A DNA stretch of 64,000 nucleotides, from assembly GCF_030811115.1 (NCBI RefSeq), contig NZ_JAUSQK010000001.1, forward strand, positions 930,001-994,000, in the 5' to 3' direction. The notes below the pieces were generated by a model. It made no database searches. It saw only the letters and a program-made list of their open reading frames with translations, and was not told the origin of the DNA. The position numbers and the translations under genes were made by a program. Origin of the DNA: Olsenella profusa DSM 13989 (GTDB lineage: Bacteria; Actinomycetota; Coriobacteriia; Coriobacteriales; Atopobiaceae). Position 1 is the stretch's first letter; every line of letters starts with the position of its first letter. This document shows positions 1-39,843 of the stretch, piece after piece.

Positions 1-3000
1 GGAAGCAGAAGCAGGACGCCGCGAACTCCGCCATCGAAAAGCTCGACTCCGACCACAGCCAGGCCGCGAGCTCCGACGAGGGATGCTCTGACGAGCAGGA
101 GGCCTCCTACAAGTCGGACAGGGCCGAGCAGGAGCAGGCCGCCAGCGAGGCGGGCGCGATGCTCTCGCGCATCTACCAGTACTGCGAGCAGACGAACGGC
201 ATCTATGGGGACGTCGACCTCTCCGACCTCATCGACACGGCCCAGAAAGCCATGGGAGCGATCTCGGCCGCAGGCTGGAACTCCGAGACCAACAGCTGGG
301 GCGAGCTCGATGACAGTACGTTTGCCGACCTTGACAAGAAGACGGCCAAGGTTGCCGAGACCATCGCCAACAGCGCGTCCGATGGGCAGCAGGGCAGCGA
401 CGAGAACACGGAGTATGGCGGCGACCCCGTGAGCCTTGTCAACGGGAACTTCACGTGGGCGAGAGGGTACTTCCTCTACGGTGGCAGGCCCGCGCTTACG
501 CTCACCTACAACTCCCTTAGACGCGAGGCAGGCGCGCTGGGGCCCGGCTGGCGCCACAGCCTGGAGGCGTCACTCGAGGATGGGCCGGACGGCATCACCG
601 TCACCTGGGGGGATGGCTCGACCGAGAGGTTCGTCGCCATCTCCGAGGGGGTCTGGTCCGAGTCGCGCGGCCGGGACGAGTACATGTCCCGCTTCGGCAA
701 GGGGTGGAGGCTCGAGGACCGTCGTGGGGAGCAGTGGTACTTCGACGAGCATGGTGGGCTCGGTTCCATCGTCGACGCGTTCGGGAGGGCGACGACGCTC
801 GAGCGAGATCCTGAGGGGAGGGTCCGTCGGGCCATCGTGCGCGAGCTGACCCTGTCGTTCTCGTATGGTGACGAAGGCAGGCTCGAGTCCGTCTCCGATG
901 ACACGGGACGCTCCGTCTCCCTCTCCTACGACGCGGGCGGCATGCTTGCGGGCATCGTGGACGAGACCGGAGCAGCGATCGCCTTCTCCAACGAGGGGGA
1001 TCTGCTGGCGGAGCTCCGCGACGAGGAGGGACGCCTCATCTGCTCGAACGCCTATGACCAGGACGGGCGGGTGCTCTCCCAGCTGCTGCCGGGGGGCGAG
1101 GTCTCCTACCGCTGGGACGGGGACACCGTCGAGGTCACCGAGCGCGACGGCTCGGTGACGCTCCATCGCAGCGACTCCGCGGGACGCAGTACGCTCAGCG
1201 TCAACGAGCTCGGCCTCGCAAGGGCGCGCTCCTACGACGCGCGCGACTACCTGACGGGGCTGAGGGCGCCCAGCGGGGCGTCCTGGTCGTGGTCGCGCGA
1301 CCGCTCCGGCAGGGCGACCTCCCTGCGCGACCCCACCGGCCGCGAGGCCCGTACGATGTGGGACGACGGCATGCTTCCGAGGAGCGTCGAGGTGGACGGG
1401 AACGTGACCCTCCGCTCCACGTCCGATGAACGGGGACTGCCCGTGCAGGTCTCCGATGGCTCGGGATCGACGATGGGGCTGCGGTGGGACGCCATGCGCA
1501 GGCTCGTGCGCGTCACGTTCGCCGACGGCTCGTCGCAGTCGTGGGACTACGCCGGCTCCTCGAGGCTGCCCGCGCGCTTCGTGGACGAAGGGGGGCACGT
1601 CACCCGATACGAGTGGGATGCCTGGGGCAACCTGGCGTCCGTGACGAGACCCAATGGTTCGACGGAGCGCTGGCGGTGGGACGCCCGCTGCCGTCTCATG
1701 GCGCACGAACCTCTGGGCGGGGGGACCGAGACGTGGGAGCGCGACGCCTCCGGCAGGGCGGTCGCGCACACGGACGCCCTCGGGCAGAGGACGTGCGCGC
1801 GACGCGACGCCGCGGGCAGGGTCAGTTCCGAGACGGAACCGGACGGCTCCGAGGTGCGGTGGGAGTACGGCCCCCGCGGGGAGCTCCTCTCCCTCACCTG
1901 GCCGGACGGGGGTAAGACGAGCTTCGGCTACGACGCGGCGATGCGCCTCGCCGCCCTCACGCTGCCAAGTGGCGAGAGGACGGGGCTGAGCCTCGATGCT
2001 GACGACAACATCGTCGGCATCGAGGGGCCTGCCGGCACGAACGCCTACACATGGGACGCGGCGGGACGACTCACCTCGGCCCAGGGGCCCCGCGATGGGG
2101 AGGAGCGCTCGTATGACGCGCAGGGCAGGCTCTCCGAGAGGAGGTTCGCGGACGGCTCGAGCGTCCGGTACGAGTACGACGCGGCAGGGCGCCAGGCGCG
2201 CCTCATCGTGAATGATGACTACACTATCGACTTTGCGTACGACGGGCGCGGCAGGCTCGTCTCCCGGGAGGACTCGCTCGGGCGCGGGTACCGCTGGCGG
2301 CTGGACGCGGCGGGCAACAGGGTGTCCGAGGACGGCATCGACGGCGAGCTGCGCTTCTCCTATGGGACGGACGGCACGTTCTCGGCCGTCACGGACGCGG
2401 CGGGCAACAGGACGGCGAGCGTCCTGGACCCCGCGGGCGAGGCCGCCGAGGTGCTGAGGCCCGGCAATGCGGGCCCCGCCAGGTACGTGCGCGACTCCCT
2501 CGGGCGCATCACGTCGATCGAGGACCCCACGGGGCGCGTGTCCCGCTTCGAGTACGACGCGGCGGGCAACGTCTGTCGCAGGGACGACGGCGGCGTCGTG
2601 CACGAGTGGGCGTACGACGCCATGGGGCGCGCGGTGGCCGACCGTGGCCCCGCCGGGGAGCACCGCTACGCCTACGATGGGGCGGGCAACCTCGTGGAGG
2701 CCGCCGACGGGAGCGGCACCTCGCGCATCGAGGTCGATGCCGCCGGGCGGCCCACGGCCGTGAGGCACCCGGACGGTGTGCACCTCGGGTGGGCGTACGA
2801 TGAGCGCGGCAACAGGGCCTTGCTCGACGTGGATGGCACGGAGATTCGCTACCACCACGACGGCCTCGGTCGCCTCGCGCGCGTGGAGGCCGGCGGCGGC
2901 TGGGTGGAGCTCGACTACGACGAGCGCGGCAACCTGTCGCGCCGCCGCTGGTCGGACGGCTCGTCGCAGTCCATCGCGCTCGACCCGGCGGGCCGCCTGG

Positions 3001-4562
3001 CGTCGATGGAGCTGGTGGATGCCGCCGGGCACCGCGACTCCCTGTCGTACGAGTGGGACGGCCGCGACGACCTGGTGGCGCTCGTCGCCGAGCGTTGGGG
3101 TGCCCCCGGGCAGTCCGGCCGCTTCGAGCTCTCCTACGACGCCGCAGGTCGTCTCACGTCCGTCTCGCGCGACGGCGAGGAGCTGGAGCGCTACGCCTAC
3201 GACGGCCGCGGCAACAGGGTCTCCTCGCCCGGCGCCTCGTATGTCTACGACGCCGCCGACAGGCTCGTGGAGCTGCGCGGCGAGGGCGGGACGACGTGCT
3301 ACGCCTACGACGGGGCGGGCTGCCTCGCGTCCGTCGAGGGGCCGGCCGGCGCGTCCCTGCTCTCGCTGGATGATGCGGGCGCGCCGCTCTCGACGGAGTG
3401 GGCCGGCGGCGGCCGCCGCCGGCACCTGCGCGACCCGCTCGGCCGCCCGCGCGGCGTCGAAGGGCTCTCGGCGGACCTGCACGACCCGTCGGTGCCCCTC
3501 CACTCGCTCGTGCGCAGGCGCACGGGGGCGGGGGAGCGCGTCTACCTGCAGACGCCGGCCGGCTGCGTCGGCGCCGTCGACCCCGCCGGCGGCGCCCTCG
3601 AGCCGGTCATGTGCGACCTGCTCGGCCAGGCGCTGCGCGTCTGCCGCGGCGGGGAGTTCGGCGCCGCGCTGGGCTCGATGCCCTTCGGCGTGCCGTTGGC
3701 GTCCGACCCGCTCGTGCCCTTCGGCGCGTTCGGCTACGTGGCCGACCCGGCCACGGGCCTGCTCGCCTCGCCCACGCGCCTCTACGACCCCGGCCTCGGG
3801 CGCTTCCTGTCGCCCGACCCCGTGGGAGGAGCGCCCGACAGGCCCCACACGCTCAACCGCTACGCCTACTCCGCGTCCAACCCCACGCGCTACTTTGACC
3901 CAACGGGAGGGTTCATAAACCTGGCGGCTGGTGCTGCCTTTGCTGTAGGTGGAGCCTTGGTGAACGGAGCAATCGAGCTTGGTAGAGAAACGCTGATCGA
4001 GCATAAGTCCCCGGACTGGGGGAAGGTGGGAGGAAAGGCGCTGGAGGGAGTTGCCATTGGTGGTGTCGCCGGCCTCACCTGCGGGGCGTCCCTCGGCGTG
4101 AGTGTCGCCGCAAACTTTGGGGCAGGGGTCTTGACCGATGTTGCTGACCAGGCCTTGGTCGAGGGCACCGCGCAGGGGCGCTCACCTTACGAGATTACTG
4201 CACATGCCTTAATAGCAGGTGGTACGAATGCCCTTTCTAACGGGCCGGCTCTTCCTGTTGACAAGTGGCTCTCGGCTCCTGTGAGTGAGACGTTGACTAA
4301 CAAGATTGTAGGCGAGGAAGTCTTCAAGGATATCGACAAGGATCTTGTGATGAGCGCGACGACACGGGGGCAGTGGCGCGACCTCCTTGGCTATGGCACC
4401 CTAGAAGAGGCCCTCTCATTCATCTCGTCTGGGGGGATGTCATTAGCGGCAGACCAGACTGGCATGACGTCCAAACTTGCCAATGGGCTAGCCGTCCTCT
4501 CCAATTGGCTTGAGCGCTATTCGAGGTACGCAGTAGTGGCGTGCGCCCAAGGGGGTCGGTAG
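1..4562 (+). CDS. RHS/YD-repeat polymorphic toxin, 5' end outside window
   Basis: The frame is open from base 3 to the stop at 4560-4562 (1519 residues seen), so the ATG at 159 is internal and the true start lies left of the window. The order is: an acidic, coiled-coil-like helical segment to about base 410, resembling the middle of the LXG-type protein at 61278; a DUF6531-like entry (YGGDPVSLVNGNF) near 415; dozens of YD repeats (YDAAGR, YDGRGN types); the closing core (GRFLSPDPVGG near 3800, YFDPTGG near 3893); then a tail of about 220 residues. RHS shells are known to encapsulate a C-terminal toxin. This tail is lower in GC, has Gly/Ala-rich helices and ends ACAQGGR; I do not recognise its activity. 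The stop lies one base before the GTG of the putative immunity gene at 4564. The last 70 residues recur at 46560. Confidence 0.93.
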   Translation, partial: KQKQDAANSAIEKLDSDHSQAASSDEGCSDEQEASYKSDRAEQEQAASEAGAMLSRIYQYCEQTNGIYGDVDLSDLIDTAQKAMGAISAAGWNSETNSWGELDDSTFADLDKKTAKVAETIANSASDGQQGSDENTEYGGDPVSLVNGNFTWARGYFLYGGRPALTLTYNSLRREAGALGPGWRHSLEASLEDGPDGITVTWGDGSTERFVAISEGVWSESRGRDEYMSRFGKGWRLEDRRGEQWYFDEHGGLGSIVDAFGRATTLERDPEGRVRRAIVRELTLSFSYGDEGRLESVSDDTGRSVSLSYDAGGMLAGIVDETGAAIAFSNEGDLLAELRDEEGRLICSNAYDQDGRVLSQLLPGGEVSYRWDGDTVEVTERDGSVTLHRSDSAGRSTLSVNELGLARARSYDARDYLTGLRAPSGASWSWSRDRSGRATSLRDPTGREARTMWDDGMLPRSVEVDGNVTLRSTSDERGLPVQVSDGSGSTMGLRWDAMRRLVRVTFADGSSQSWDYAGSSRLPARFVDEGGHVTRYEWDAWGNLASVTRPNGSTERWRWDARCRLMAHEPLGGGTETWERDASGRAVAHTDALGQRTCARRDAAGRVSSETEPDGSEVRWEYGPRGELLSLTWPDGGKTSFGYDAAMRLAALTLPSGERTGLSLDADDNIVGIEGPAGTNAYTWDAAGRLTSAQGPRDGEERSYDAQGRLSERRFADGSSVRYEYDAAGRQARLIVNDDYTIDFAYDGRGRLVSREDSLGRGYRWRLDAAGNRVSEDGIDGELRFSYGTDGTFSAVTDAAGNRTASVLDPAGEAAEVLRPGNAGPARYVRDSLGRITSIEDPTGRVSRFEYDAAGNVCRRDDGGVVHEWAYDAMGRAVADRGPAGEHRYAYDGAGNLVEAADGSGTSRIEVDAAGRPTAVRHPDGVHLGWAYDERGNRALLDVDGTEIRYHHDGLGRLARVEAGGGWVELDYDERGNLSRRRWSDGSSQSIALDPAGRLASMELVDAAGHRDSLSYEWDGRDDLVALVAERWGAPGQSGRFELSYDAAGRLTSVSRDGEELERYAYDGRGNRVSSPGASYVYDAADRLVELRGEGGTTCYAYDGAGCLASVEGPAGASLLSLDDAGAPLSTEWAGGGRRRHLRDPLGRPRGVEGLSADLHDPSVPLHSLVRRRTGAGERVYLQTPAGCVGAVDPAGGALEPVMCDLLGQALRVCRGGEFGAALGSMPFGVPLASDPLVPFGAFGYVADPATGLLASPTRLYDPGLGRFLSPDPVGGAPDRPHTLNRYAYSASNPTRYFDPTGGFINLAAGAAFAVGGALVNGAIELGRETLIEHKSPDWGKVGGKALEGVAIGGVAGLTCGASLGVSVAANFGAGVLTDVADQALVEGTAQGRSPYEITAHALIAGGTNALSNGPALPVDKWLSAPVSETLTNKIVGEEVFKDIDKDLVMSATTRGQWRDLLGYGTLEEALSFISSGGMSLAADQTGMTSKLANGLAVLSNWLERYSRYAVVACAQGGR

Positions 4563-33488: not shown

Positions 33489-34343
33489 CTGGCAGACGAG
33501 GCTGCACAGAGCATTTCGGCTGAAACCGAACAGGCGGCACCCGCACCCGATGAAAGCATCGCATCGGCTGACTGCACTACCGTTCCTCCCTCCGAGCTCG
33601 ATGCCAGCGCTGATGGCGACAGCGCCGAGGCGCAAGGCTCCGACACATTGGATTGGCCCGAGCGTTGGCTGTCCGCCAAACGTCTCGCGCCATACCTCGC
33701 CGCCTGTGGGGACGACATCGAGACGGCGCTTGACTTGCACGAGTGGGACCTGCGGTTGGGCCAGGTGCTCTTGGGCGACGTTGCGCATTTCGAGGTCGCG
33801 CTGCGCAACGCCTACGCTCGTGTGCTCCGAAATGACGTGGGCGACGGGTGGCTTTTCGACGCCACGTCCCCGGTGCGAAGGCCCATCGTGCGCAACAGCA
33901 AGGCCAAGAAACCGAGGGACGTAAACCTCGTCAATCGCCGCGCGATTGACGACGCCATCGGAAGGGCACACGACGGGACGAGCCCCGACCAAGTGATCAC
34001 GGGCCTCACATTAGGTTTCTGGGTTCATCTGACGGACAGGAGCCGCGAGCGCGACCTGTGGATTCCCCACCTGTACAAGGCCTGGCCCGCCGGTGTCGAC
34101 CGCAGCGCGCTCAACAACGCCCTCCTGGCCATCAACAAGGTCCGCAACCGCGTGGCGCACAGCGAGAGGCTCTTCGACCCGAAGCGACCGGAGCTCTCGC
34201 CCCTTTCGGCGGATGCGGATGCCGTGCGGCTGCTGCGGCAGCTGTACCCCGAGGCTGCCGAACGGCTCTATGGCAGCGGTGGGGAGACGCCCGTCGAGCT
34301 TTTCGTCAGCGAGTACCCGGCTCCTGCCGCCGTGTCGCTGTGA
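33489..34343 (+). CDS. Abi-like (Abi_2) abortive infection protein
   Basis: The recognised domain runs from 33648: LSAKRLAPYLAACGDDIETA, LHEWDLRLGQVLLGDVAHFE, VALRNAYARVL, GFWVHLTDRSRERDLWIPHL and NKVRNRVAHSERLF, which carries the R-N-x-x-A-H signature of Abi_2/HEPN-like proteins. These act as phage-exclusion RNases or toxins. Start is uncertain: a TTG lies at 33648, but the frame is open back to 33447 and an acidic, coding-like extension (MADEAAQSISAETEQ if read from CTG) begins at 33489 with GGGAGG 5 bases before it, so I take that start. Base composition is lower in GC than the surrounding toxin genes, which suggests separate acquisition. Confidence 0.83.
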   Translation: MADEAAQSISAETEQAAPAPDESIASADCTTVPPSELDASADGDSAEAQGSDTLDWPERWLSAKRLAPYLAACGDDIETALDLHEWDLRLGQVLLGDVAHFEVALRNAYARVLRNDVGDGWLFDATSPVRRPIVRNSKAKKPRDVNLVNRRAIDDAIGRAHDGTSPDQVITGLTLGFWVHLTDRSRERDLWIPHLYKAWPAGVDRSALNNALLAINKVRNRVAHSERLFDPKRPELSPLSADADAVRLLRQLYPEAAERLYGSGGETPVELFVSEYPAPAAVSL

Positions 34344-34400
34344 TTGTCCCGCCACGCTTTCGCGCGACAATCCAGCCGACCAGCGCCCATATCCCCATTC

Positions 34401-34760
34401 CACCAATCCGGCGCCGACATCCTGGCCGACGGTGGCTGCACCTTCCACGACCTCAGGCACAGCTTCGCCACCATGATGATTGCGGGCGGCTGCGACGTGA
34501 GGACCGTGGCGAGCTACCTGGGGCACGCGAGCGTGTCCATGACCCTGGACATCTACGCCGACGTTGACCCCGAGGCGAAGCGTGCGGCTGTGGACAAGGT
34601 GGCGGACTCGTTCGACGTGGGCCTCGACTCGCTCTATGACCTCCCGAAATACGTTGCAGCGCCGAGCGCAGGTGCGGGCGCACTCACATTCTCGGTGGAC
34701 CAGCTCAAGGCGATGCTCGCGGCAGCAGAGGAGAGGGGGGCTGTGCATGGTACCGGGGTT
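34401..34760 (+). pseudogene. Tyrosine recombinase, C-terminal fragment
   Basis: Frame-open segment with TFHDLRHSFATMMIAGG, VRTVASYLGHASVSMTLDIY and a closing helix: box II of the tyrosine recombinases with H-L-R-H, the second histidine (GHAS) and the catalytic Tyr of LDIY. The catalytic-domain start and the N-terminal arm-binding domain are missing. A relic of an integrated element in the scrap zone. Confidence 0.85.
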
Positions 34761-34799
34761 GCCGCCCGCTGTCCGCGTCGCAAGCATCTGGCTGGCAGC

Positions 34800-35611
34800 G
34801 GTCGCAACGGCAACCTACCTCTGGAGCCTACCCGAAGATGTCGACCTCATACTCGACTGGCGGCTCATAGGCTACAGTATCGACGAGCCCTGGGAGGAGC
34901 GCAGCAACACCAAACAGGACAGGTTCAAGCTCGACACCATCGAGCGCACGAACCGCTACCTCGCCGAAACGTTCGCGCCGTCGCTCAGGGCGTCCATCTC
35001 CGAAGAGCTCGGCATCGACGCCGACGTCCGCCCTGCAGAAGAGGAGGAGACGGGTGGTATTCGCGTACCCGCGGATGTTCGCCTCCTCGGCGACGCTCGA
35101 CGCGATAAGGCTCGAGATCGGGCCGCTCGCGTTATGGACCCCGTCGACGATGGCGGAGGTGATGCCGTACGTCGCCGAACGGCATCCCGAGGTGTTCGAC
35201 GCGCCGTCTACCTCGGTGAGGACCGCGATACCCGAGCGCACGCTCTGGGAGAAGGCGACCATCCTCCACCAGGAAGCCAACCGCCCCGAGGCGAAGGCGA
35301 TGCCGCGGCGCTACTCGCGCCACTACTACGACATGTACCGGCTCGGCCGTTCCGACATCGCGGACAGGGCTATCGCCCGCCCGGAGCTGCTCGCCAAGGT
35401 CGTCGCGTTCAAGGAGAAGTTCTACCGGACGCCCTGGTCCAGGCTTGCCGATGCGAGACCCGGCACGATCAAGCTGGTGCCTCCGGGCTACCGGGTACCG
35501 GAACTTCAACGCGACTACAGCTCCATGCGGTCCATGATCTTCGGCGAAGTCCCGCCATTCGAAGACGTGCTCGCCTTCATGGGGCAATTGGAGGACAAGA
35601 TCAACGGCTGA
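34800..35611 (+). pseudogene. AbiEii-type nucleotidyltransferase toxin, truncated and frameshifted
   Basis: In one frame LPEDVDLILDWRLIGYSIDE is the D-x-D nucleotidyltransferase signature of the AbiEii/AbiGii (DUF1814) toxin family, followed by a helical part to about 35050; the rest continues in another frame (VFAYPRMFASSATLDAIRLE, RTLWEKATILHQEANRPEAK, YSRHYYDMYRLG) to 35611. The expected N-terminal 40-50 residues with the KGGTSL motif are absent. One frameshift at about 35050 and the missing head make it inactive. No AbiEi-type antitoxin gene is adjacent. Confidence 0.83.
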
Positions 35612-36121: not shown

Positions 36122-37054
36122 ATGCCCGACAAGGAACCCACCAGGAATGAATCGGCGATTGCCCTCTCAAGCGATGCGCAGATCAGGGACATGATCTACA
36201 CCGTGCGGGGCCAGCAGGTCATGCTCGACAGTGACCTAGCCGAGCTGTATGGCGCTGAGACGAAGGTGCTCAACCAGGCCGTGAGCAGAAACTCTAAACG
36301 CTTTCCCGACCGATTCTGCTTCCGAGTCACGCGAGAAGAAGCTGAAAGTCTAAGGTCACAAATTGTGACCTTACGCCCTGAACTGGGCAAACAGGACACA
36401 TGGTGGCGCTACATGCCGCGCGTCTTCACCGAGCAGGGCGTGTCGATGCTCTCCGCCGTGCTGCGCAGCGACACGGCCATCGATGTGAGCGTGCGCATCA
36501 TGGATGCCTTCGTCGAGATGCGCCACTTCATTGCAGACAACGCCCACATGTTCGAGCAAATCAGGAGCATCGACCATAGGCTGGACGGTCTCGAGCGCTC
36601 GACCGACGAGCGCTTCGAGCGCGTCTTCGACTACATGGAGACCCACGAGGCATCGAGCCAGAAGGTCTTCTTCGAGGGTCAGGTCTACGACGCGTTCGAG
36701 CTGCTGGTCTCGCTCGTGCAGAGGGCAAAGCGCGAGATCGTCCTGATCGACGGCTACGTGGACACGGGGACGCTCAACATCCTCGCCAAGAAGGGGCCTA
36801 GCGTCACTGTCACCGTGTGGACGCATCCCAAGGCCAGCCTCACCAAACGCGACGTCGAGACCTTCAACGCACAATACCCGACGCTTGAAGTGCGCCATAC
36901 AGCCTCATTCCACGACCGCTTCCTCATCCTGGACGGCACCGAGGGCTACCTGGTGGGAGCGTCCCTGAAGGATGCCGGTAAGAAGAGCTTTGCCCTTGCC
37001 AGACTTGAGGATTCCTCCGTCATCAGCTCGATTGTCGCCGCGCTTGGCGAGTAG
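36122..37054 (+). CDS. ORF6N-domain DNA-binding protein with phospholipase-D-like C-terminus
   Basis: 310 residues. Residues 20-105 are an ORF6N domain (YTVRGQQVMLDSDLAELYGA, NSKRFPDRFCFRVTREEAES, YMPRVFTEQGVSMLSAVLRS), a DNA-binding module of phage and mobile-element regulators. A coiled linker (140-180) leads to an alpha/beta part (EIVLIDGYVDTGTLNILAKK, ASFHDRFLILDGTEGYLVGA) with an H-x-R-F-L-I-x-D element like a single PLD half-site without the usual Lys. It is intact and lies alone in the scrap zone. A perfect palindrome inside its own coding sequence and a similar one just downstream suggest autoregulation or programmed recombination; see findings. Confidence 0.87.
   Translation: MPDKEPTRNESAIALSSDAQIRDMIYTVRGQQVMLDSDLAELYGAETKVLNQAVSRNSKRFPDRFCFRVTREEAESLRSQIVTLRPELGKQDTWWRYMPRVFTEQGVSMLSAVLRSDTAIDVSVRIMDAFVEMRHFIADNAHMFEQIRSIDHRLDGLERSTDERFERVFDYMETHEASSQKVFFEGQVYDAFELLVSLVQRAKREIVLIDGYVDTGTLNILAKKGPSVTVTVWTHPKASLTKRDVETFNAQYPTLEVRHTASFHDRFLILDGTEGYLVGASLKDAGKKSFALARLEDSSVISSIVAALGE
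36351..36373. promoter_or_regulatory. Perfect palindrome inside the ORF6N gene
   Basis: TAAGGTCACAA, one central A, then TTGTGACCTTA: 11-bp perfect arms. It encodes the turn RSQIVTL of the ORF6N domain, and its core TCACAAAyTGTGACC recurs at 37082-37096. Confidence 0.65.
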
Positions 37055-37074
37055 GTGAATAGAACGTTCAGCAG

Positions 37075-37103
37075 CTTTGAGATCACAAACTGTGACCTCA
37101 AAG
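37075..37103. promoter_or_regulatory. Related palindrome 20 bases after the ORF6N stop
   Basis: CTTTGAGATCACA, AAC, TGTGACCTCAAAG: 13-bp arms with one G-T mismatch and the same core as 36351-36373. It could be an operator or, as RNA, a hairpin terminator, though no U run follows. Confidence 0.6.
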
Positions 37104-37267: not shown

Positions 37268-38128
37268 ATGGATGCCAAGAACACTGATAACACAGCTGGC
37301 GCCAGCGGGGCCATCTGCCCAGGCGGGAAGGGATGGCAGCCTGGAGAGGCGCAGTACGGGTACGAGCTTGCCCACGATCTTTTCATCGACGTCGTCGATG
37401 ACGGCATCCGCTTGGAGGCGGGGGTGACCTGGCCCACGGACACGGTGACGGGCAAGCGCAGTTCTGGGACGTTCCCCGTATTGGTGGAGTTCACGCCCTA
37501 CCAGCGGCAGGGCTACGAGGGCCTGCGGCACACGTATCTCGTGGAGCACGGCTACATCGTGGCGCAGGTGCATCCGCGCGGGTCGGGCAAGTCGACTGGC
37601 GTGCTGGAGCAGTTCACGAGCCGCGACGGGCTTGATGGTGTGAAGGTCGTCGAGTGGGCGGCAAAGCTCGACGGCAGCAACGGCAAGGTGGGCTTCTTCG
37701 GCTCGTCCTACCCCGGCGCATTGGCGCTGGCCACGGCCGCGAGGGTGGGCAAGGGCTCTGCGCTGAAAGCCGTGCTCGCCGCTAGCATCGGCACTGGCGC
37801 TCAGTACCGGCAGGCGTGGACGAACAACGGCCTGCCCATAATTCTCACGCCCGGCTCCATGCATACCTTCGAGATGGCGCTCAAGCCCATCCAGTACGGC
37901 CTCAGGCCCGGACACCGCCTGCGCCTCGTGCTCTCCGCGCAGGGCCTCGGCCCCACAACCGAGGGGCGCATGCCCGCCGAGGGCGGCATGGGCTTCCTCA
38001 TCGCCGACCCCGCCGAGCTGACAGCGCCGCAAGAGGCGACCGTGCACGGCGGCGTGTATACCATCGGCTCGGCGGCCCTCGGCATCCCCAGCTGCCCCTC
38101 GAGGGCGCTGCCCACGGCGAAGTCCGCC
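37268..38128 (+). pseudogene. CocE/X-Pro dipeptidyl-peptidase-like hydrolase with internal deletion
   Basis: The first 185 residues are a normal S15-type start: VTWPTDTVTGKRSSGTFPVL, RGSGKSTGVLEQFTSRDGLD, and the nucleophile elbow VGFFGSSYPG. Near 37830 the text jumps (AWTNNGLP then IILTPGSMHTFEMALKPIQY) to the C-terminal jelly-roll (GLRPGHRLRLVLSAQGLGP). About 280 residues are left where the family has 550 or more, and the lost part holds the catalytic Asp and His. The 3' end runs into the composite repeat at 38128. TATCCT near 37243 could be its old -10 box. Confidence 0.82.
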
Positions 38129-38247
38129 CACACGGGTGGGGAAAGGTACCCACACGCAGCGATGAGTGCCCCGAAGTGCGCGCTCGACGCGTTCCGAAGA
38201 ATCTTTCCTGGGCAAACGCGGGCCGGATCGCATCGAACGCGCACTTT
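38128..38247. repeat. Composite palindromic repeat, copy 3 (partial)
   Basis: CACACGGGTGGGGAAAGG (end of module 1) followed by module 2, AAGTGCGCGCTCGACGCG (38174) to GAACGCGCACTTT (38247), with the internal stretch TTCCTGGGCAAACGCGGGCC shared with 33000. It abuts the truncated hydrolase gene. Confidence 0.75.
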
Positions 38248-38363
38248 GGCGCGGCCGTCGTCGTGGCCCCCGTCGCGGGGCCTGCGTCTAGAATGTGCAT
38301 GGGGCGGCAGGTCGCGTGCGAGGGGCCGTGGCGGCCGCAGAGACGAGGGATGGGGGGCTTCCG

Positions 38364-39777
38364 ATGGGTCATGTCCTGACGAGGAGGGGGCTCCTGGGGG
38401 CGGCGCTGGCCGGCGCGGCAGCGCTCCCGGCGTGCTCCGGCGCCGGGGAGGCGCCCGGCGGCTACGGCGTCGGCGAGGTCGCGCCCGCCGCCGACCGGGG
38501 CAGCTAGCTGGCCCGGGCTCACGGGCATCGCCGACGCGTCCGGGGAGTGGGTCGTGACCCCGCGCTGGGCGGGGGACCCCTCCTCGGGCGGCCCCGTCGT
38601 CTCCGCCGCGGGCGACACCGCCGCCGTGCGCGCCGTGGACGGGCGCGGCCGGCCGACGGACTACGGCTACGTCGGCTGCGACGGCTCCTGGGCGGTGGCC
38701 CCCTCCCTCAACGAGGCCCGCGGGTTCTCGGTGTGCGGCCTGGCCGCGGCGCAGGCGGAGGAGGACGACAGCGGCTGCGGGAACGACTGGGGCTACCTCG
38801 CCCCGGACGGCTCCTGGGCGCTCGGCCCCGGATTCTCCATGAGCACCGGGGACTTCGGCGCGGACGGCACCGCCCTCGCCGAGTCGAGCGAGGACCCCCA
38901 GACGGAGTCCGTGCGCTGGATCGGCGCGGACGGCTCCGACGCGGACCCGTCCCTGCCGTGGGCGGTGGAGCGGTGGCCGTCCGCGGCGTCGGACGGCCTC
39001 TGGGGCCTCAGGGACCAGGGCGGCTCCTGGGTGCTCGAGCCCTCCCTCGCCCGCCTGCGCCCCCTCCTCGCCGAGCGGGCCTACCTCGCCCGGGACCCGT
39101 CCTCGGGCCTCTGGGGCGTCCTCGCCCCGGACGGCTCCTGGCTGGTCGCCCCGTCCTTCCAGGATGCGTGGTGCCAGGGGGGCTCCCTCCTCGCCCGGGA
39201 CCCGTCCTCGGGCCTCTGGGGCGTCCTCGCCCCGGAGGGCTCCTGGCTGGTCGCCCCGTCCTTCCAGGATGCGTGGTGCCAGGGGGGCTCCCTCCTCGCC
39301 CGGGACCCGTCCTCGGGCCTCTGGGGCGTCCTCGCCCCGGAGGGCTCCTGGCTGGTCGCCCCGTCCTTCCAGGATGCGTGGTGCCAGGGGGGCTCCCTCC
39401 TCGCCCGGGACCCGTCCTCGGGCCTCTGGGGCGTGGCCTCCCTCGGCGACGGCTCCTGGGAGGTGGCCCCCGCATGGGGGAAGGTCAGCTCCGGGTACTA
39501 CAACGCCCGTCCCCACCTGGGCGACGGGTTCTGCGCCCAGGACCCCTCCTCGGGCCTGTGGGGCGTGGCCTCCCCGGACGGCTCCTGGGAGGTGGGGCCG
39601 TCCTTCCGCGCGGTCTGCGACTACGCGGGAGGCAGGGTGGTCGCGGGCGCCACGAAGGACGGGCCGTGGGGCATCGCCTCCCCCGACGGCACCTGGCTCA
39701 CGGAGCCCGCCTACTCCTTCGCCCTCTGGATGCCCGCCGCCGACGTCTTCCTGGCGACGGTGCCGGAGGAGGGGTAG
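38364..39777 (+). pseudogene. Tat-type lipoprotein with WG repeats, frameshifted after the signal peptide
   Basis: From ATG 38364, GHVLTRRGLLGAALAGAAAL then PACSGAGEAPG is a complete Tat-lipoprotein signal (Cys23). That frame stops at 38505; the WG domain continues in another frame from about 38490 (AASWPGLTGIADASGEWVV, then YGYVGCDGSW, LWGLRDQGGSW, and LWGVLAPEGSW units) to 39777. One base change in the C/G-rich junction would restore a protein of about 470 residues. A start at GTG 38554 would give only a cytosolic repeat domain. Residues encoded by 39088-39402 are a nearly perfect triplicate; see the repeat entry. Confidence 0.82.
39088..39440 (+). repeat. 105-bp in-frame tandem repeat, three units plus a partial
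   Basis: Units begin at 39088, 39193 and 39298 (each gcccgggacccgtcctcggg...), with a partial fourth at 39403. Each encodes 35 residues, ARDPSSGLWGVLAPEGSWLV followed by APSFQDAWCQGGSLL. The first unit differs by GAC for GAG; units two and three look identical. Confidence 0.93.
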
Positions 39778-39843
39778 GGGGGCCGGGGCGGCCGTGGCTG
39801 GGGCGTGCAGGGGAGATGACCCACGGATGGGAGGGTGTGACGG

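Follow-up and report, generated by a model that had tools for sequence, protein, structure and literature searches.

Why should the gene for a DNA-binding protein carry a perfect palindrome within the codons of its DNA-binding domain? The question is raised by a gene of Olsenella profusa DSM 13989 in the 64,000-nucleotide stretch of DNA that we analysed (positions 930,001 to 994,000 of contig NZ_JAUSQK010000001.1, hereafter the window). The gene runs from 36122 to 37054 on the forward strand and encodes a protein of 310 amino acids with an ORF6N domain (residues 24-113), long helices and a C-terminus of PLD fold. The preliminary description of this DNA reported a 23-base perfect palindrome within the coding region, and the sequence bears this out: TAAGGTCACAA-A-TTGTGACCTTA, which we propose to be the operator of an ORF6N dimer, occupies 36351-36373, with arms of 11 bases on either side of a central A at 36362, and overlaps codons 77-84 (LRSQIVTL). 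The same description mentioned a 29-base palindrome behind the stop codon. That was nearly right: a copy with a core of the same class is present at 37075-37103, 20 nt past the stop codon (CTTTGAGATCACA-AAC-TGTGACCTCAAAG), but it is a near-palindrome in which 12 of the 13 arm pairs match around the 3-nt centre AAC, the remaining pair being an A/C mismatch. With up to three mismatches GGTCACAAATTGTGACC has four matches in the window, all on the two palindromes, where shuffled sequences give an expectation of 0.01. Across the 2.6-Mb genome the degenerate form of the palindrome is found at those two places only, while a scan that allows up to three mismatches adds three further places. We therefore rejected the idea of a genome-wide regulon; none is visible, since the genome offers no more than two such sites and a single ORF6N gene.

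The protein matches PF10543 (ORF6N) with 109.6 bits against a curated cut-off of 27.8 (E 9e-32). An XRE-type domain, the type of domain present in the regulator C.Kpn2I that is discussed below, was also sought, and Pfam matches up to E 0.01 consisted of ORF6N alone. AlphaFold models, together with the tracking of bases by residues described below, predict a helix-turn-helix at 36227-36289 on the forward strand, with a first helix at residues 36-43 (36227-36250) and a recognition-like helix at residues 47-56 (36260-36289). We found no sequence relatives of the ORF6N domain in the PDB within the limits of the search and no convincing solved relative of its fold (best Foldseek E-value 0.39); a second structure comparison of the domain model gave Z scores of at most 7.6, with top rows that include Ski/Dachshund, RacA and MerR-type winged helices. 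Residues 178-310 (36653-37051, forward strand) are predicted to adopt the fold of the PLD superfamily, since the structural matches among the 50 rows listed (Z 12.5 to 8.8) are mostly PLD-fold chains, with rmsd 2.7-4.5 over 110-132 residues, and include NucT, Nuc, BfiI and TrmB. The catalytic motif of that superfamily is HxK(x)4D, and the C-terminus has H264-x-R266-(x)4-D271, with Arg in the place of Lys; these three residues are invariant in an alignment of 57 rows. The protein also matches PDC-S05 of PADLOC, a candidate defence family, across residues 11-308 (E 1.3e-120), a family that the accessible parts of two 2026 papers count or place in a tree.

The surroundings of the gene have several features of their own. 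Upstream, at 33648-35611, an Abi_2/AbiD-like gene is found together with an AbiEii gene whose profile match is confined to the later part, and the ORF between the two resembles, judging from a motif, the C-terminal end of a tyrosine integrase; the region gives the impression of a cluster for defence or integration that has become worn. Downstream, at 37268-38557, the match of a Peptidase_S15 gene to its catalytic profile covers the first half, and next comes a match, under the cut-off of that family, to a short internal segment of the profile for the C-terminal domain, as if the gene had been internally deleted. It is followed at about 38550-39800 by a protein with near-identical repeats (LLARDPSSGLWGVLAPEGSWLVAPSFQDAWCQGGS) that resemble the repeats of other large ORFs nearby.

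Is the palindrome a peculiarity of one gene, or do its homologs share it? The preliminary description had left it to other ORF6N genes to show whether the palindrome is kept at the same codons or lost at synonymous sites. We collected such genes from the class to which the window belongs (56 of 396 genomes with a match), from viral contigs and from a large genome collection. From the last we took the best 80 of at least 571 loci, and this part of the sample accordingly leans to close relatives of the alignment. The resulting 221 domain matches represented 206 distinct proteins, and we retained the 181 that scored at least 95 bits. The patterns used to search the viral contigs and the genome collection avoid the codons of the palindrome, and conservation of the dyad was consequently not built into the sampling. 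Each domain was scored for 12 symmetric pairs, at distances d=2 to 13 from an odd centre, within the scanned stretch. At least 10 of the 12 pairs are present in 167 of the 181 distinct domains and at least eight in 179, whereas 10 or more arise in 1% of resamples with synonymous codons. Of the loci from the genome collection, 77 of 79 reach 10 pairs, and these come from 18 of 19 named phyla; one locus is archaeal according to its record.

The dyad is thus kept, and it is conserved against codon choice. When the synonymous codons of each gene were resampled 200 times from its own usage, the pairs at the same place fell from a mean of 11.1 out of 12 in 180 sites to 5.2, the summed z was 47, and 154 of the 180 genes exceeded all 200 of their resamples. 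If instead the best-scoring position within about 240 bases is allowed, 92.8% of genes have at least 10 pairs compared to 2.2% of resamples. What is conserved is symmetry more than sequence. Watson-Crick pairing holds at each distance from d=2 to d=11 in 149-168 of 172 distinct sites, and yet the arms vary widely (TCACA, TCGCA, TGCCA, TTCCA, TCTTCC, TCGAA, TCAAA and others); at d=4, for instance, the pair is A-T in 81 sites, C-G in 45 and G-C in 33. Even the seven C-T clashes at this position are in keeping with Cys codons, in which an A at the third position would create a stop codon.

The in-gene site stands alone at 120 of the 181 loci under set thresholds, many of the loci ending early, and we rejected copies upstream or downstream as the main site for that reason. 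Short ORF6N genes carry the palindrome too (L008 with 179 codons and L061 with 184), which indicates that it belongs to the DNA-binding ORF6N domain. Some genes have more than one copy: in L054 and L083 an extra in-frame palindrome is found next to a decayed first copy, and extra in-gene copies occur in L054, L060 and L068. The ORF6N gene of L068 has four palindromes of differing cores and is flanked by two identical 50-nt palindromes (GGGACGGGGCGTTTGTCACC...) at 1487-1537 and 3615-3665 (0-based, strand as scanned), so that the gene and its flanking palindromes look like a small mobile unit. The palindrome is not a signature of ORF6N only, a notion that we rejected upon finding the 18-base GAGGTCACANNNTGTGACCTC in 23 of 30 viral stretches with no ORF6N match; in nine viral contigs (L218, L219, L222, L224, L225, L228, L229, L239 and L243) this sequence stands before T runs, resembling an intrinsic terminator.

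Does the symmetry act in duplex DNA or in a transcript? Arms of 11-13 pairs that enclose a short loop could fold, and the in-gene copies are transcribed if the gene is, so the palindrome might be conceived of as an mRNA hairpin that controls translation, decay or attenuation. An RNA stem, however, would tolerate G-U pairs, and one would look for these to exceed A-C. Among 1892 pairs at d=3 to 13 the mismatches comprise 25 G-T and 35 A-C, with no strand bias; G-T thus shows no excess over A-C, which speaks for a duplex site and against an mRNA hairpin. In addition, the core tracks a residue of the helix-turn-helix, as detailed below, and 24 of 29 near-perfect dyads found just upstream of the genes fit the half-site profile, a degree of sequence specificity that is more than a mere hairpin would need. 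We accordingly rejected the hairpin, which we regard as highly improbable.

If a protein reads the duplex, which one? In the information analysis of 176 domains with a dyad score of at least 9 (two rows, L028 and L056, have no true in-gene site and were scored as mismatches), residue 52 of the domain was the best predictor of the bases at d4 and d5 among all columns, above the site's own codons, and residue 49 ranked third. Among the columns outside the site codons, those that best track the bases are 52 and 49 for d4/d5 and 48 for d7. In the window these are K48, V49 and Q52, the last encoded at 36275-36277 on the forward strand, and in the models all three share one face of the second helix of the helix-turn-helix. 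The relation between residue 52 and the core amounts to a simple code. Gln goes with TCACA, in both halves of 76 of 88 sites; Glu goes with TCGCA in 19 of 30 sites and with TCGAA in five more; Lys goes with TTCCA in 18 of 23 sites; and Arg goes with TGCCA, in both halves of 14 of 32 sites and mostly in one half of the others. Taken together, d4 and d5 fit this code in the left half of 161 of 173 sites and in both halves of 147. The exceptions include L084 and L212, which have TCCCA, and L123 and L127, in which Lys occurs with TGGAA. In contacts between proteins and DNA, Gln prefers A and Arg or Lys prefers G.

The rule was first spotted by eye in the alignment, and the counts given above come from those very sequences. 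Did residue and core change together, or do they merely share ancestry? On a tree built by a quick method without the site and without residues 48, 49 and 52, for 167 domains with both states, residue 52 changed 42 times, the core 44 times and the two jointly 45 times, whereas unlinked changes would sum to about 86; 161 of the 167 domains match the code. Supported independent pairs number eight each for Gln/A and Glu/G, of which on average 7.9 agree and none is opposite, and for Arg/C 5.9 of 6 agree; Lys/T has three pairs only, too few to judge. As an independent test, the code was fixed beforehand and applied to fresh sequences from other Actinobacteriota, new viral contigs, plasmids and one phage record. 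These contained 32 domains of more than 70 residues, from which L351 and L352 were dropped because they coincide with L069 and L071, which had been sampled before. Of the remaining 30, 29 have a dyad score of at least 9, and in these the code fits the left half in 28 and the right half in 27; the exception in terms of symmetry is L354, with only 8 of 12 pairs. (Before the two were dropped the corresponding values were 30 domains, 29 left halves and 28 right halves.)

Neighboring copies of the gene offer a view of the same switch at close range. Within single loci, adjacent copies have differing codes in L044 (Gln and Arg), L158 (Arg and Glu), L178 (Glu and Lys) and L399 (Gln, Arg and Arg), and a shared code in L052 (Lys and Lys) and L140 (Gln and Gln). 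The copies in L399, from a Parabacteroides record, are three tandem ORF6N genes at 1810-3543 just before leuS.

Could the coupling reflect contacts within the protein rather than contacts with DNA? Residue 52 might pack on residues encoded by the site, the palindrome itself having come from the amino acids or from a template-switch mutation. It is true that the core in the usual reading frame also fixes residues 79 and 82, that the columns of these residues are highly informative, and that for d4 alone one of them, a codon of the site itself, ranks first, above residue 52. Such packing, however, would not explain why synonymous resampling destroys the dyad. In one branch of the family, moreover, the reading frame across the palindrome is shifted, so that the same DNA encodes LVTNCDR instead of RSQIVT: the frame-shifted sites specify VTNCD or VANCD, not SQIVT or SQIAT, and still keep the code in 13 of 15 cases, 4 of 5 in the first set and 9 of 10 in the fresh set (a count that leaves out L028, L048, L056 and L064, genes that have no in-gene site). 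In addition, genes that lack these residues keep a matching site upstream. We rejected packing on account of the frame-shifted sites and give it next to no credence.

The code also bears on the upstream sites, which are non-coding. Near-perfect dyads, sought with no sequence filter, are enriched just upstream of the genes, with 29 in 33 kb compared to 13 in 175 kb and 8 in 143 kb farther away, where some belong to neighboring ORF6N genes. Upstream half-sites fit the code in 53 of 98 cases relative to 34.6 in permutations (p 0.0002), which also means that nearly half of them miss it. Moreover, upstream sites are concentrated where the in-gene site is missing: a near-perfect palindrome is present upstream of 6 of the 7 domains whose in-gene dyad stays below 9, compared to 17 of 175 others (p 1e-5), and with the limit at a dyad of 10 the counts are 7 of 14 and 16 of 168. 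These counts use fixed thresholds, with three loci cut, and supersede an earlier Fisher test for which six genes had been chosen after looking, L083 having been added by hand with a profile score below the limit. The upstream core is as predicted in five of six such genes (Gln with TCACA in L036, L048, L056 and L064, Arg with TGCCA in L035); upstream of L028 one site fits the code and one does not. The coupling of residue to base therefore persists where the site is read in another frame, at some of the upstream non-coding sites and in fresh data.

The downstream copies are another matter. That of the window gene carries the core predicted from its protein, but across the loci only 17 of 40 downstream half-sites fit the code, where 13.7 are expected, and a downstream copy does not resemble the in-gene palindrome of its own locus (similarity z 0.0). 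We rejected them as self-operators since they show no coupling to the specificity of the protein. About half of the upstream half-sites and most of the downstream ones miss the code, so some flanking sites serve something other than a self-operator function.

The preliminary description had suggested autoregulation or, alternatively, site-specific rearrangement. Did the palindrome serve as a site of recombination, transposition or domain shuffling, for the PLD-fold C-terminus or for some other enzyme? Several observations invite the question: extra in-gene copies exist in L054, L060 and L068, the copies behind the stop codon ignore the code, the C-terminus has a PLD fold, and some of the genes adjoin integrases. 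Also, within the gene body 32 of 94 significant breakpoints in identity lie at +60 to +149, behind the palindrome, compared to 10 within 60 nt of it, and the neighboring paralogs L044 and L020 are 63% alike before such a point and 91% alike behind it, although in a scan of this type uneven conservation along the gene would look the same as exchange. When the DNA behind the gene was included, only 2 of 184 significant breakpoints were within 60 nt of the palindrome centre and 8 at +60 to +149, most being at the end of the gene. Neither of the two scans, then, has a peak at the palindrome, and if breaks do occur behind it, the helix and the operator would stay together. Furthermore, the short genes L008 and L061 carry the site too, and coupling to a residue that reads DNA requires binding only. 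We consider a role in recombination improbable. Of the two original suggestions, rearrangement thus found no positive support, while that of an operator for autoregulation is strongly supported by a dyad selected at the DNA level across phyla and by a helix residue that predicts its core.

Is the arrangement confined to ORF6N? In a subfamily of Bro-N antirepressors (PF02498; loci L246-L275 and L358-L392), 36 of 42 distinct domains have 10 or more of the 12 pairs, mostly at one place, compared to 3.3% of resamples, and 27 of 33 have it if nine seeds that were chosen with knowledge of their dyads are left out. Three residues spaced as on one face of a helix track the core, and for the residue X of YWxX, Val goes with TACA in 14 of 14 cases and Asp with CGA in 12 of 12. 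This subfamily is therefore like ORF6N in having an in-gene dyad at a fixed place and a code that links residue to core, and unlike it in the residues and core sequences involved. Of eight other Bro-N matches, which we take to be of the DinD-like type, seven have no dyad and one (L269) has 10 of 12 pairs at another place. None of the four KilA-N genes that were scored has the dyad, and the control comparison skipped seven loci with cut flanks.

What, then, would the palindrome do? We consider it quite probable, reasoning from sequence, that an ORF6N dimer binds an operator in its own coding sequence and represses its own gene. The operator would be written into the codons of the DNA-binding domain, and the dimer would bind the palindrome symmetrically on double-stranded DNA by means of its helix-turn-helix, with residues 48, 49 and 52 of the recognition helix reading the half-site; in the window, Gln52 would read the A-T pair of TCACA. 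The bound protein would most likely hinder RNA polymerase as a roadblock about 240 bp into the gene, giving a negative feedback that could work under any promoter and move with the gene. ORF6N genes are found on plasmid records, beside integrases, in tandem before leuS and in viral contigs, and for genes with such a way of life control that travels inside the gene would pay. The same binding might, in principle, have another purpose: the protein could be held at its own gene as a self-tag or docking site, for example as a PLD-fold effector that stays inactive until a phage factor releases it. The match of the window protein to PDC-S05, its AbiEii and AbiD-like neighbors and the PLD-fold domain with its invariant His264, Arg266 and Asp271 would all suit such a role. 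Nevertheless, L008 and L061 carry the palindrome in genes with no room for the PLD part, and the upstream copies near the start codon resemble ordinary operators, so we regard a docking site as unlikely and repression of the gene by its own product as the better account.

Intragenic self-binding by a regulator is already known. For instance, parS lies inside parB/spo0J and operator O2 inside purR, each being a site of a DNA-binding protein within its own coding sequence, but these are single sites with a fixed consensus and are not known to switch specificity family-wide in the codons. In the restriction-modification C-protein C.Kpn2I, according to the accessible text of the report on it (PMC6237814), the regulator binds within its own coding region and stalls elongating RNA polymerase, the motif occurs in the regions of 71 of 285 homologs, and the authors point out that control of this kind does not depend on the promoter and is suited to horizontal transfer. 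ORF6N is similar in that its predicted site lies within its own coding region and is selected at the DNA level. However, C.Kpn2I is XRE-type by the tree in that paper whereas ORF6N is another family, and its site is at or near the start of the frame whereas that of ORF6N is about 240 nt into the gene. ORF6N differs further in that the site is in the codons of the DNA-binding domain itself, is present in most members across phyla, and co-varies with a specificity residue. In the accessible portions of the open-licence literature we found no embedded operator or recognition code for ORF6N in print, nor, among the matches listed, a deeply conserved operator in the codons of a DNA-binding domain that co-evolves with the recognition helix across many phyla.

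We lean to the conclusion that ORF6N and the Bro-N subfamily are self-addressed regulators, in which an operator in the codons matches the recognition helix encoded by the same gene and the two are inherited and switch together. If so, each copy could regulate itself without crosstalk, and control would be kept under any promoter after transfer. Part of the Pfam motif LRSQ-I/F-VTS would then be a DNA signal and not a protein signal. What is taken for a conserved protein motif can then be an operator embedded in the DNA, a reason for caution in reading motifs, or couplings between residues, as protein structure. The matched pairs of regulator and operator with switched specificity would form a natural series for the study of how DNA recognition evolves and for orthogonal repressors. 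For ORF6N, which is widespread, uncharacterised and a candidate for phage defence, the analysis predicts both the DNA target and the recognition code and proposes a logic of regulation.
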